A stretch of 64,000 bases of DNA from Paracholeplasma brassicae (GTDB lineage Bacteria; Bacillota_I; Bacilli_A; Acholeplasmatales; UBA5453): NCBI RefSeq assembly GCF_000967915.1, contig NC_022549.1, positions 1,414,366 through 1,478,365 of the forward strand, written 5' to 3'. Below the pieces are notes generated by a model. The model worked only from the letters and a program-made list of their open reading frames with translations. It searched no databases and was not told the origin of the DNA. Positions 23,203 through 51,440 of the stretch are shown piece by piece (positions within the stretch are counted from its first letter, which is position 1; each line of letters starts with the position of its first letter). The position numbers and the translations under genes were made by a program.

Positions 23203-23324
23203 CTATTTGATTGTTTCTAACTTCTTCTCTTTGTTTCCCGCTTCCTTATTTATTTGTCTCATCAACACAAACAAATAATCGCTCAGTCGGTTCACATACT
23301 GAATCATTTCTTTGTTTGCTTCTA
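23203..23324 (-). pseudogene. 3' fragment of pduO left by the rrn duplication
   Basis: The last 40 codons (ANKEMIQYVNRLSDYLF... to the TAA) are identical to the end of the intact gene at 29729-29850, then homology stops abruptly at 23324. There is no start or N-terminal part, so it is a passenger of the duplicated block. Confidence 0.93.
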
Positions 23325-24134
23325 AAAAAGATTTAGGAATCGCTAGATAAAAAAACTCATGAAATGCAATTGTTTTGTAATTGCATAACAAAGATTTGTA
23401 GAGAAAGTGATTGTGTGGTTACATGTGCCTACCAGATTACGCTGGATTAGGTGGCGTTGTTAGACAAACTTTATGCTATGAAAATGTTTTCAATATTCAT
23501 GGCGTATCAAGAAGAACGGTCTGCAGACTATTTTGATAACCATTTACCTAGTTTTCAGGTTGAAAAATGATGCAACCCTATATAGATACTCTTTTACTTT
23601 ATTGATACTAATCACCTGATTGGACAACACAACACAGTTTAATTCATCTACTTGATGAAAGTATCTTTTCATACTAAATTAATTCACATGAAAGTTACAA
23701 ACCTGGAATGACTGTTAAAAACGGTTAATTGCTTTAATTACTTTTTGGAAAACGGAATCAAGAATAGCTTCTTATTACTTAAACGGTAAACTTCTTGCCG
23801 AAAACGTAAGATACAACTACTTACTACCTAAGTGAAGTCGAAATGCCATGAGTCTATTAAATAGATAAGAATAAAACTTACTCTTTTTCGTATTTGAGGG
23901 GATATCTATGAAAACGTCAATTTCATATACGTAGTCAACCAATAAAAGTTGATCATGCAAATAGACAAGTTGATAAGAAATGGTTCGAATAGAGTAATTA
24001 AGTATCACAAGAGACATCCATGATGTTGATTGCTTGTTCTACTGTTTTAAAATGGATCGGGCTACTTATTACAGAGACATATTATTTTTCAATTTGTCAA
24101 ACTTTCCATTAAACAGTATGTACCCATAAATAAA
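23325..24134. other. spacer between rrn copies: decayed sequence
   Basis: About 810 bases without an intact gene. It holds an 8-bp inverted repeat ATGCAATT-N7-AATTGCAT (23364-23386), the PFK-like remnant listed separately, and on the minus strand two neighbouring broken frames: HFKTVEQAINIMDVSCDT near 24020-24090 and a 66-codon frame 23817-24017 that I cannot place. Both look like residues of a lost gene. Confidence 0.5.
23406..23535 (+). pseudogene. remnant resembling a phosphofructokinase N-terminus
   Basis: Two overlapping frames join into VVTC + PDYAGLGGVVRQTL + ENVFNIHGV, which resembles the VTCGG..PGLN.VVRQ...GV.NI.G segment of PFK-family enzymes (PPi-/ATP-PFK of the plant/TP0108 type). 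There is a frameshift after VVTC and a stop soon after. The match is by eye only, and nothing further of the enzyme is visible. Confidence 0.35.
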
Positions 24135-29728: not shown

Positions 29729-30253
29729 CTATTTGATTGTTTCTAACTTCTTCTCTTTGTTTCCCGCTTCCTTATTTATTTGTCTCATCAACACAAACAA
29801 ATAATCGCTCAGTCGGTTCACATACTGAATCATTTCTTTGTTTGCTTCTACTTTAACAAGTAGTCGCTCAATACTTCTAATTTGGCTTCGTAGGCTTGAT
29901 ATGTGTATTGCAGCTAGTGTGCCGTCGTATGTAATAAAATTTTTCAGTGGTACCAATGACGCTTCTATTTGATCTATCTTCATCTCAAGTGAAGCAACGC
30001 TCTGATCACTTATCGATAAATTCAATCGGTGATTGACATCAACTAATGCCGAGGAAATCGTAAACAAGTGATTATTGATTGAAGAAAGTTCATCAAGAAC
30101 CTCTTGATGATTTATCTCATGCTTACAATAAGCAATACGTACACACGCCTCATCGATTTGTCCAACAAGTTCAATAATCACATCGGATTTTAAAGTTCTT
30201 TTGCCGATTAAATCGGTCTCGCCTAAATCACCACGTTTGGTGTATATTTTCAA
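29729..30253 (-). CDS. pduO: PduO-type cob(I)alamin adenosyltransferase
   Basis: A 174-aa ATP:cob(I)alamin adenosyltransferase that makes AdoCbl. N-terminal MKIYTKRGDLGETDLIGKR matches the ATP-binding TRTGD.G.T.L segment; DGTLAAIHISSLR replaces the usual GG.P.AA.LH..R, and the C-terminal NRLSDYLFVLMR motif is typical. The start overlaps the rseP stop (ATGA), so it closes the uppS-cdsA-dxr-rseP unit, an unusual place for this gene. It pairs functionally with the B12 uptake operon at 38.4-40.8 kb. No AdoCbl-dependent enzyme is in the window. Confidence 0.88.
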   Translation of the reverse strand: MKIYTKRGDLGETDLIGKRTLKSDVIIELVGQIDEACVRIAYCKHEINHQEVLDELSSINNHLFTISSALVDVNHRLNLSISDQSVASLEMKIDQIEASLVPLKNFITYDGTLAAIHISSLRSQIRSIERLLVKVEANKEMIQYVNRLSDYLFVLMRQINKEAGNKEKKLETIK

Positions 30254-38409: not shown

Positions 38410-38934
38410 TTAAGAACCAAAACCTTCTTGTTCTTTTTGCTCAACTAATAACCCATTGATAAACCCATAGAGTGGTTCATACAACCACAAGATACTTAGA
38501 AAACTCGAAATCCCTAGTATGGTTGAAAAAGGAATATCTAGTATTAATGTTGTCATAAAGTTCGCCCCAGTAAAATAGATTGTAAACGGGATGAATAAAA
38601 ACCCATAAACGTAACTGTAAACAAAGCTAAATATCGCTAAATGTATGGCTTTTTGAAGAAACTTAAAGACCGTGCCTAGTAAAACCGGTATTAGTGTCCA
38701 GCCCAAAAGCATTGGAAAAAAAGTCATCGGCATTAAACTTCCATGGATTAAATTGTCTGCTAACGTATGAACAATCACAATGAGTAGCGTTTTTTTTACA
38801 CCAAATATGCGGGTGTATAAAATAATTAACAAAACCGTTACTTGGACGTTTGGTAAAAACGTCAGTGCTTGTTCGCTAACAAATAAAATGACTGTCATCA
38901 TACTTAGGATAAGAAGTTCTTTGACTTTTGACAT
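38410..38934 (-). CDS. ECF transporter S component, probably for cobalamin
   Basis: 174 aa with about six membrane helices and no ATP-binding part: the substrate-binding (S) subunit of an energy-coupling factor importer. The N-terminal helices (LILSMMTVILFVSEQALTFL) and the HTLADNLIHGS and MLLGWTLIPVLLG segments suit the ECF S fold. Last gene of the operon under the cobalamin riboswitch (40600-40770), after two DUF4430 genes, so B12 or a precursor is the likely substrate. The shared EcfA/A'/T module is not in the window. Confidence 0.8.
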   Translation of the reverse strand: MSKVKELLILSMMTVILFVSEQALTFLPNVQVTVLLIILYTRIFGVKKTLLIVIVHTLADNLIHGSLMPMTFFPMLLGWTLIPVLLGTVFKFLQKAIHLAIFSFVYSYVYGFLFIPFTIYFTGANFMTTLILDIPFSTILGISSFLSILWLYEPLYGFINGLLVEQKEQEGFGS

Positions 38935-38946
38935 GTGTTTTATCCC

Positions 38947-39348
38947 TTATCTTAATGTTTCTAGTTTTAACTTGACGGTTTGTCCGTCTTTTAAATAGGT
39001 TTGAGAGATCCCTTTTTCTTGGTAAACGTCATCCACATAAAAAGCAAAGTAAGTGGTTTGATCGACTTCTAAGTTCACTTCACTTGATTGGATTCCAGTT
39101 AAAAAATATCCAAACCCAAAGTTAGAGCCTTTTAATGTAAAGTATGTTTTTAAGAAGGCTTCAACCGACTGATCTTCTTTTGAGTCTAGATTTGCTTCAA
39201 AGACTCGATCGTTTTTATCATAGATAATAAGATTCACTTCAATGATGGTGTCTTTTTCAGTCGTCTTTTGATTAAACTGAGTGTAGATGAACAGACCAAA
39301 GAAAACAACAATCAGACTAATCAGTAATTTGAAAAGGATCTTTTTCAT
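38947..39348 (-). CDS. membrane-anchored DUF4430 protein
   Basis: 133 aa: one N-terminal helix (about 5-22, no lipobox Cys) then a DUF4430 domain (about 38-133) with the repeated strands VNLIIYD, VEAFLKTYF, GFGYFLTGI, YFAFYVDDVYQEKGISQTYLKDG and a final hydrophobic strand. DUF4430 corresponds to the C-terminal beta domain of transcobalamin and intrinsic factor, which contacts the upper face of B12. It sits between the lipoprotein and the ECF S component, with spacing of three bases from the former. It may pass B12 to the membrane. Confidence 0.8.
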   Translation of the reverse strand: MKKILFKLLISLIVVFFGLFIYTQFNQKTTEKDTIIEVNLIIYDKNDRVFEANLDSKEDQSVEAFLKTYFTLKGSNFGFGYFLTGIQSSEVNLEVDQTTYFAFYVDDVYQEKGISQTYLKDGQTVKLKLETLR

Positions 39349-39351
39349 AGA

Positions 39352-40509
39352 CTAAAAATAAAGAGAAGTCTTCGGATTTTGGTATGTATCGTTAAATAGT
39401 TTATAAACAACCAACGAAGAAAACACTTGTGGGGTTGAAAACATCAAATCAACCGCACCCGTTTGATGGTTTTTAAAACCACCTTCTTCTTGATAGGACA
39501 TTAAGGCTTCAATTAGATCAATGTTTTCAAAAGATCTTGGGTTAATGCCTAAGCTTACAAGACCCAGCACAACTTGCGCTGTACTAGACGCGCTTGCTTT
39601 GCCACTATAATCAAGAAAACCGTCTTTCGTTACCGTTTCTTTTAAGTAAGTAAGTATTTCATTGATGCGTACGTCGTATGAATCAGAATCTAAGCTAAGT
39701 AATTGTAAAGCCATCCCTGCGTAATCCGCATCTGAAATCGTCGTTTCACTAGATAACTGTCCTAAATGAACCTCATCAACTGTTTGATTAATGATGTATT
39801 TTGAGAGAACAAGCGGATAATAAGAATACACGGCGTAAGGGCCTTCATTAACCGACGAACCGCTTAAATAAGTCGTCGTTAGGTCTAGATTTAATCCAAG
39901 TGCTTTAAAATAAATGGCACTGCGAAACGCACTCGGTAAGTCGCTAATAACCGAATAATCAGTTTTGATTTTTTCTTTTGTAAGTAACGACTCAATCGTT
40001 GCTAATCTCGTATTAAATGTCTGCAATTTTTGATACGCAGCGAATACATAATAATCGATTTTTTCATCACTTATGTAATCTTCAACTAATTGATCGACAA
40101 ACGAATAAATCGATTGATCAACTTCAAGAGCCAATGCGTCTTTCATTGAGGTTTCTCTAAACTCAATGACCATTTGATCCTCAAGTGTCAGTTCGACAAT
40201 TCCAACTTCGCTATAAATGTCATCAACATAGATAGAATACCAGTAACTTGAATCGGTTGGATAAATACCCCCAACCCCTTTGATAAATGCCCCATATTCT
40301 GACATTTCATAGTCCATTAAAACCTCAGACTCGATGGCTTCAAGGACACCGTCAAACGCACCCTCGCTATATTGAATGGTCTTTTCAAATCGAACGTCAT
40401 TTGACTGATCGACGACTTGAACGGTTAATTCTAAAGGGCTATTTGTTTGACACCCCGCAATCACCATTAAGCTAAATACAATTAAAAACAATGTAACGAT
40501 TTTTTTCAT
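39352..40509 (-). CDS. transcobalamin/intrinsic-factor-like B12-binding lipoprotein (DUF4430 plus alpha/alpha toroid)
   Basis: 385 aa lipoprotein: signal with lipobox VIAGC (Cys20), DUF4430 domain about 27-115 (IYPTDSSYWYSIYVDDIYSEVGI), then about 150-380 a helical repeat domain with ISDADYAGMALQLLS, SSTAQVVLGLVSLGINP and GGFKNHQ, the alpha/alpha-toroid pattern of prenyltransferase-like domains found in intrinsic factor. The domain order is reversed relative to human intrinsic factor (toroid first there). First gene behind a cobalamin riboswitch and terminator. I infer that it binds external cobalamin at the cell surface for the ECF importer. Confidence 0.82.
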   Translation of the reverse strand: MKKIVTLFLIVFSLMVIAGCQTNSPLELTVQVVDQSNDVRFEKTIQYSEGAFDGVLEAIESEVLMDYEMSEYGAFIKGVGGIYPTDSSYWYSIYVDDIYSEVGIVELTLEDQMVIEFRETSMKDALALEVDQSIYSFVDQLVEDYISDEKIDYYVFAAYQKLQTFNTRLATIESLLTKEKIKTDYSVISDLPSAFRSAIYFKALGLNLDLTTTYLSGSSVNEGPYAVYSYYPLVLSKYIINQTVDEVHLGQLSSETTISDADYAGMALQLLSLDSDSYDVRINEILTYLKETVTKDGFLDYSGKASASSTAQVVLGLVSLGINPRSFENIDLIEALMSYQEEGGFKNHQTGAVDLMFSTPQVFSSLVVYKLFNDTYQNPKTSLYF

Positions 40510-40536
40510 TTTAACGCCTCCGGAGTATATTCTTAA

Positions 40537-40562
40537 AAAAAATCAACACGTCTAGGTGTTGA
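40537..40562 (-). terminator. riboswitch-controlled terminator
   Basis: TCAACAC / GTGTTGA hairpin followed by eight T, just before the SD of the lipoprotein gene. An alternative hairpin (TATAACAA/TTGTTATA, 40564-40588) lies between it and the aptamer. Confidence 0.8.
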
Positions 40563-40599
40563 ATATAACAAAAAAAATCGTTGTTATACAAGCATCACC

Positions 40600-40770
40600 C
40601 AGGCCGTACAAAAGTAGATAAAAGGTAGGTCTACCGGCTAAGACATCATCCGCCTCACGCCTTCCCGCTTAGTCGCAGTGGCTTATGTGATTTGTCCGTT
40701 TTACGGTTGCTGGGGCAGCGAAAGCTTTTACTTTCTTCCCTGTTATGTCCTAAGACACCTAATACCCATT
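40600..40770 (-). ncRNA. cobalamin (B12) riboswitch
   Basis: On the minus strand, in order: GGTGTCTTAGG, the B12-box core GCTGCCCCAGCAACCGTAA, GCCACTG, CGGGAAGGCG, and GCCGGTAGACCTACC near the 3' end. These are landmarks of the cobalamin aptamer. It is preceded by a promoter and followed by a terminator, so B12 should switch off the uptake operon. It fills the 306-base gap between dut and the lipoprotein gene. Confidence 0.93.
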
Positions 40771-40781
40771 AAGTTAACTTC

Positions 40782-40810
40782 ATTATAACGTTTTTGTCCT
40801 TCTTATACAA
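40782..40810 (-). promoter_or_regulatory. promoter of the B12 operon
   Basis: -35 TTGTAT (40805-40810), 17-bp spacer, -10 TATAAT (40782-40787). Confidence 0.8.
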
Positions 40811-50776: not shown

Positions 50777-51298
50777 TTATCTTGGGATATAAGCCTTACT
50801 TGACTCAATTGGAAGTAACGATTCAATTCGTTTTAGAATTGAGTCTACCACAAACACAATAAGCCCTGAATTAAACAAAAGCGACAATAAACGAATTGGT
50901 AATGTTCCAAGTGCTGTTTTTCGTCCAAAATAGATGAAATTAGCAAATGTATTGGCACTTGTGGCTAACAGGTAGCTTACAACAATAACAAGCGCTAAAT
51001 GAAAGAATTTATAATCTTTCTTATAAAGTAAGCCTGGCAGTATGCCCCACATTAAAGACGATATGGTATAAAGTGGCATGTAACCGACCACCAACCCAAA
51101 AGCCGTATCTGCAACCGCACTAATTAGTAGACCATAAATTGGCCCCAACAAAACCCCACCGATAATCAGTGGTATGGCATAATAAGGTAGCCCAAAGGTT
51201 CCATTACTCGGGATGAGAAAATAAAACATTAGATTAATTGCTACCGATAGGCTGGCAAAAACAGCCCCTAAAACAATTCTTAACACATTCTTTTCCAT
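50777..51298 (-). CDS. folT: folate ECF transporter S component
   Basis: 173-aa membrane protein of about six helices. LRIVLGAVFASLSVAINL, the GLPYYAIPLIIGGVLLGPIYG and VADTAFGL segments match folate-type ECF S components (FolT). The THF riboswitch directly upstream supports folate as substrate. The energising EcfAA'T module is not in the window, so it must be shared, as in group II ECF systems. Confidence 0.9.
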   Translation of the reverse strand: MEKNVLRIVLGAVFASLSVAINLMFYFLIPSNGTFGLPYYAIPLIIGGVLLGPIYGLLISAVADTAFGLVVGYMPLYTISSLMWGILPGLLYKKDYKFFHLALVIVVSYLLATSANTFANFIYFGRKTALGTLPIRLLSLLFNSGLIVFVVDSILKRIESLLPIESSKAYIPR

Positions 51299-51344
51299 AA
51301 AAACGACCTCCTTAGATTAAGAAATCCACCAATAAAAAACAAAC

Positions 51345-51440
51345 TTACAGCGGACGCACAAGAAAACCGCCACCTTAGTGTTCGTACTAATCCGACATCC
51401 CATGATTAGTCACTTAACGCTTTCTTATTACTCTGTAAGC
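51345..51440 (-). ncRNA. tetrahydrofolate riboswitch
   Basis: Perfect closing stem CTTACAG (51434-51440) / CTGTAAG (51345-51351) around the conserved core AAAGCGTTAAGTG, ATGGGATGTCGG, CGAACACTAAGGTGG and GTCCGCTG of the THF (folT-leader) class. Located immediately upstream of folT, so folate should repress it. Confidence 0.93.

Follow-up and report, generated by a model that had tools for sequence, protein, structure and literature searches.

The window analysed here, a stretch of 64,000 nucleotides from the complete 1,877,792-bp genome of Paracholeplasma brassicae, carries on its minus strand a three-gene operon flanked by a dUTPase-like gene and rpsB. The genes (40509-39352, 39348-38947 and 38934-38410) are tightly spaced, with gaps of 3 and 12 nt, and encode a lipoprotein, a membrane-anchored DUF4430 protein and an ECF S component. 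An earlier note, made from the sequence, had described such an operon behind a cobalamin riboswitch and a terminator, and every part that it named was located on the minus strand at or beside its place. The features are as follows, in the direction of transcription, with an adenosyltransferase gene from outside the operon at the end:

40607..40777, minus strand: cobalamin riboswitch aptamer (RF00174)
40543..40562, minus strand: intrinsic terminator
40517..40521, minus strand: ribosome-binding site GGAGG, read from the sequence, 7 nt 5' of the ATG
39352..40509, minus strand: lipoprotein ORF, 385 aa, with signal peptide and lipobox, beta (DUF4430) domain and alpha/alpha toroid
40147..40434, minus strand: DUF4430 / transcobalamin beta-like domain (residues 26-121 of the lipoprotein)
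39388..40137, minus strand: alpha/alpha toroid (residues 125-374 of the lipoprotein), from predicted helices and Foldseek
38947..39348, minus strand: anchored DUF4430 protein, 133 aa, cbrS-like
38410..38934, minus strand: ECF S component, CbrT-like, 174 aa, with six helices and a PNVQ motif
29729..30253, minus strand: PduO-type cob(I)alamin adenosyltransferase

The aptamer covers the full RF00174 model (1-189) at 88.8 bits (cmscan, E 1.3e-20), where the Rfam gathering score is 31.5 bits. Of 30 close homologous loci, 29 have it 5' of the lipoprotein gene, and it is present at 15 of 20 loci from more distant genomes of the class. The expression platform before the first ORF contains the terminator, a 7-bp stem (TCAACAC/GTGTTGA) followed by T8, and a hairpin with a T-run occupies the equivalent position in 19 of 20 loci, with stem sequences that differ between them. 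The folding stability of the leader RNA is no better than that of shuffled sequences (z -0.88); the evidence for the riboswitch is therefore the covariance model together with the terminator. A promoter search found no excess over shuffles.

The lipoprotein gene comes first after the riboswitch. Its product has the lipobox VIAGC, in which G19 and C20 are invariant across 30 homologues, and an AlphaFold2 model built from a 30-sequence alignment (mean pLDDT 89.8, pTM 0.83) divides the remainder into a beta domain (26-121) and an all-helical domain (125-374). The DUF4430 match (PF14478, residues 69-118) scores 23.3 bits with the whole protein, just below the cut-off of 23.8 bits, and 26.6 bits, above it, in the genome scan, and 25 of the 30 family members match at E 0.1 or better (best E 1.5e-07). 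In a Foldseek search of the PDB the top match of the beta domain is the beta domain of human transcobalamin (5no0, E 9.8e-05, TM 0.71 on the target), and the further matches include transcobalamin and the DUF4430 protein 3u7z of Ruminococcus gnavus. PDB searches with the lipoprotein sequence and with its profile returned chance matches only; a profile of 20 DUF4430 sequences found 3u7z (3.6e-12), transcobalamin-2 (E 0.0023) and transcobalamin-1 (E 0.0057). The agreement of predicted fold and sequence profile indicates that the beta domain is homologous to the C-terminal domain of the intrinsic factor/transcobalamin carriers.

The helical domain resembles intrinsic factor in fold. The toroid that the earlier note had named is clear in the predicted structure and is not callable from sequence: neither Pfam nor NCBIfam has an HMM that matches it, including any Pfam toroid or cobalamin-carrier family, there is no sequence match in the PDB, and a deeper profile of the toroid likewise matched nothing there. 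Foldseek recovers intrinsic factor (2pmv, 3kq4) together with squalene-hopene cyclase and the beta subunit of RabGGTase, and intrinsic factor and the other toroids, terpene cyclases and prenyltransferases, match about equally well. The toroid can be called at the level of fold, which is not specific to intrinsic factor; judging from the model, the relation is one of fold, shared with other toroids. The order of the domains is indeed reversed relative to intrinsic factor, the beta domain preceding the toroid here and in every two-domain relative examined, among which we found no lipoprotein with the mammalian order of toroid then beta domain.

The second gene encodes a protein with an uncleaved N-terminal membrane anchor and no lipobox. 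PF14478 matches its residues 60-130 at 31.0 bits (E 3.5e-07), above the cut-off, so that DUF4430, which the earlier note had assigned to both proteins, was found by HMM in each. A profile of this anchored family alone matched nothing in the PDB, whereas the broader DUF4430 alignment did. The gene occupies the equivalent position, directly upstream of the S component gene, in 29 loci.

What does the S component transport? The AlphaFold2 model (pLDDT 86) has the six-helix S-component fold, and 16 of 21 orthologues match ECF_trnsprt (PF12822), although the copy in the window has no Pfam match of its own. Structural comparison does not discriminate the substrate: Foldseek ranks RibU (TM 0.66-0.68) and PanT, gives TM values of 0.56-0.68 for RibU, PanT and FolT overall, and lists no B12 S component. 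Sequence profiles are more informative. The family profile has a single ECF match in the PDB, the CbrT structure 6FNP (E 2.1e-4), and conversely a profile built from ten CbrT sequences gives orthologues as much as 45 bits (E 5e-13), the divergent window copy a weak 10.8 bits (E 0.024), and four other S components of the host genome no more than 3.5 bits. By these two tests the family is, in sequence, nearer to CbrT than to other S components. Transport of B12 by CbrT has been proven experimentally (PMC5997447). Elsewhere in the window (50924-51437, minus strand), a further ECF S component (PF12822, 28.1 bits), probably a folate importer, has a THF riboswitch just 5' of it.

The order lipoprotein, DUF4430 protein, S component is kept in 29 loci, and the lipoprotein is matched in 49 of 160 genomes of the same order, many of the matches covering only part of it. 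The E-values, together with the conservation of the whole arrangement, exclude chance. Around the arrangement seen in the window, a beta-toroid lipoprotein with DUF4430 protein and S component, relatives display a range of architectures. Some pair a toroid lipoprotein lacking its own beta domain with a DUF4430 protein and S component (beta-less lipoproteins occur at L029, L031, L032, L072 and L075, and a separate DUF4430 protein adjoins them in the loci examined), others have DUF4430 protein and S component and no toroid protein (L088, L090 and L091), and still others have lipoproteins with tandem DUF4430 domains. Two lipoproteins of the last kind (L082:766-1797 and L087:1501-3360) consist of three tandem DUF4430 domains, are free of a toroid and lie 3' of a B12 riboswitch. 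In one relative, at L081:2744-3856, a CbrT-like S component is fused to a DUF4430 domain in a single uninterrupted protein of 371 aa, in which membrane helices flank the DUF4430 domain on both sides. A B12 riboswitch precedes this gene, as does the gene for a beta-toroid lipoprotein. Since fusions usually signal proteins that act together, this one argues for a physical hand-over, and it is the strongest hint in the sequences that ligand may pass directly to the S component.

The rest of the genome has the means to use imported B12. EcfA, EcfA' and EcfT are encoded as a cluster away from the operon, the PduO-type adenosyltransferase in the window scores 116.2 bits against TIGR00636 (cut-off 108.45 bits) and 130.9 bits against PF01923, and a B12-dependent ribonucleotide reductase, NrdJ, is found at 1379.8 bits. 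CobS is absent from the genome, consistent with dependence on external B12. There are only two cobalamin riboswitches, one at the operon and the other outside the window directly before nrdD-nrdG (G000:C1:1799338-1799515, L051), which places the B12-independent reductase under B12 control. B12 probably decides, then, which ribonucleotide reductase is made; the genome encodes a class I reductase as well as NrdJ and nrdDG. The only match to the B12-binding domain PF02310 in the genome is a small corrinoid-binding protein resembling CarH/MtgC (L052:3453-4100), encoded just 5' of an ABC exporter pair; it may be a regulator that responds to B12 or to light. At 23203-23391 (minus strand), beside the other rRNA operon of the window, stands a copy of the 3' end of the PduO-type gene, within a duplication of 554 bp, 96% identical, that starts at the 16S gene and has a third match near G000:C1:259934; a duplication of the rRNA operon seems to have carried the end of the adenosyltransferase gene along.

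From these observations we infer that B12 is the ligand of the operon, as the earlier note had done, and the inference is now much better supported. Very probably the surface proteins capture B12 from outside the cell and the importer brings it in, and we are confident in the overall reading of a B12-repressed scavenging operon in which capture at the surface by the lipoprotein is followed by relay and CbrT-like import. When B12 is scarce, the riboswitch would allow transcription past the terminator, and the lipoprotein, anchored at the outside of the only membrane that this wall-less bacterium has, would capture cobalamin from the medium. The ligand would be held probably in the cleft between the beta domain and the toroid, as in intrinsic factor and transcobalamin. 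The second, membrane-anchored DUF4430 protein may keep or relay the ligand at the membrane, where the CbrT-like S component, energised by the shared EcfA-A'-T module, would accept it. Inside the cell, the PduO-type enzyme would make adenosylcobalamin for the class II reductase NrdJ, and when B12 is plentiful the riboswitches would turn off both the operon and nrdDG. The anatomy given in the earlier note was right, and the function that it proposed is probably right also; none of the results that it had named as contradicting its reading was obtained.

The riboswitch, the terminator, the operon, the folds, the relatives and the client genes are observed; that the lipoprotein binds B12, that the site lies between its domains and that the ligand is relayed to the S component is what we propose. 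It could be that the lipoprotein does not bind B12 and that its handling is left to the DUF4430 protein and the S component alone, as is the case in lactobacilli, the toroid lipoprotein instead docking something else, for example another corrinoid-carrying protein or a surface partner, or trimming the ligand as an enzyme. Such a division of labour would account for the loci that have DUF4430 protein and S component only and for the lactobacilli that manage with cbrS alone, toroids also occur as enzyme folds, and toroid lipoproteins without their own beta domain exist. Nevertheless, we think it unlikely: the lipoprotein gene is the one that directly follows the riboswitch, its product shares both domain types with dedicated B12 carriers, and the separate DUF4430 protein found next to the beta-less lipoproteins means that a composite site is possible.

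The cargo and the route of entry can be questioned as well. CbrT transports cobinamide in addition to cobalamin (PMC5997447), and control by a riboswitch is blind to the form that is imported, so the operon might serve for incomplete corrinoids such as cobinamide, or for other cobamides, in place of cobalamin. This too we regard as improbable, slightly more so than a lipoprotein that leaves B12 alone, because a cell lacking CobS could not complete cobinamide by the standard route, although import of other cobamides is possible. Entry of B12 chiefly by way of a BtuCD-type ABC importer, with the operon serving another B12-linked substrate, is very improbable. The genome does encode FecCD permeases, the family that includes BtuC, but no B12 riboswitch lies close to either FecCD locus, and the S component is like CbrT and unlike the others of the genome. 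Scavenging of cobalamin through the lipoprotein, the anchored DUF4430 protein and the S component is accordingly the reading that we prefer.

Part of this system has a known counterpart. In lactobacilli, CbrT is encoded in nrdJ-cbrS-cbrT-pduO (PMC5997447), and the Lactobacillus gene between nrdJ and cbrT encodes a DUF4430 lipoprotein (PF14478, 66-68 bits). ECF-CbrT of Lactobacillus delbrueckii and its relatives thus likewise has a small membrane-attached DUF4430 protein before a CbrT-like S component, and its clients, too, are NrdJ and a PduO-type adenosyltransferase. The differences are that the lactobacillar cbrS product has a lipobox where the protein described here has a membrane anchor, that a toroid protein, present here as a two-domain lipoprotein, is absent from the CbrT neighbourhoods examined, and that the operon is under riboswitch control whereas none of ten Lactobacillus-type CbrT loci scanned has a cobalamin riboswitch. 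In Lactobacillus rhamnosus, one report annotates a protein as an "additional lipoprotein component of putative cobalamin ECF transporter" and places a DUF4430 protein gene next to the B12-type reductase gene rtpR (PMC9963975); a lipoprotein that works with a B12 ECF transporter is predicted there by annotation only, and whether it is a DUF4430 protein is left unsaid. That a DUF4430 lipoprotein accompanies a B12 ECF transporter is therefore already known or predicted for lactobacilli. As far as we have checked, what is new is the toroid-bearing two-domain lipoprotein, its control by a riboswitch, the fusion of DUF4430 to the S component, and the range of architectures.

Other B12-capturing proteins resemble the lipoprotein to different degrees. 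Intrinsic factor, transcobalamin and haptocorrin likewise join two such domains, an alpha/alpha toroid and a beta domain of DUF4430 type, in a single extracellular protein, but the animal carriers are secreted and have the toroid first, whereas the protein here is a membrane-anchored lipoprotein with the beta domain first and a toroid similar by fold only. BtuG is a beta-propeller that works with the outer-membrane BtuB, and its fold and importer are unrelated to those described here. As a surface lipoprotein that captures B12 ahead of an importer, BtuG of Bacteroides is nonetheless a functional parallel (PMC6143338). RUMGNA_00854 of R. gnavus (PDB 3u7z), the best match of the domain profile, is a solved bacterial DUF4430 domain; it has that single domain and was deposited as a putative metal-binding protein. 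The relation between DUF4430 and transcobalamin has been remarked upon for the animal proteins (PMC4350170), and the parts consulted of that paper and of PMC9963975 contain no experiment on the function of bacterial DUF4430.

How ECF importers capture B12, a rare and bulky molecule, without a classical substrate-binding protein is an open question, and the origin of the animal B12 carriers is not settled. The operon bears on both. It is a small, testable system under riboswitch control, in which a proposed surface carrier having the two domain types of intrinsic factor is combined with a DUF4430 protein as relay at the membrane and with an S component like CbrT. The natural variants, with toroid only, DUF4430 only, tandem DUF4430 or DUF4430 fused to the S component, would allow the role of each part to be separated from the others. 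The operon suggests, moreover, what the bacterial DUF4430 proteins might do; Pfam still gives the family as one of unknown function. Tentatively, and with far more doubt than for the scavenging operon itself, we suggest that bacteria may have carriers of their own that resemble intrinsic factor: surface proteins of two domains, in which B12 is bound between DUF4430 and the toroid before its delivery to an ECF importer. If this is true, the many loci in which the domains are separate, swapped, repeated or fused to the S component would represent a modular stock from which the animal carriers, whose domain order is the opposite, could have been assembled.
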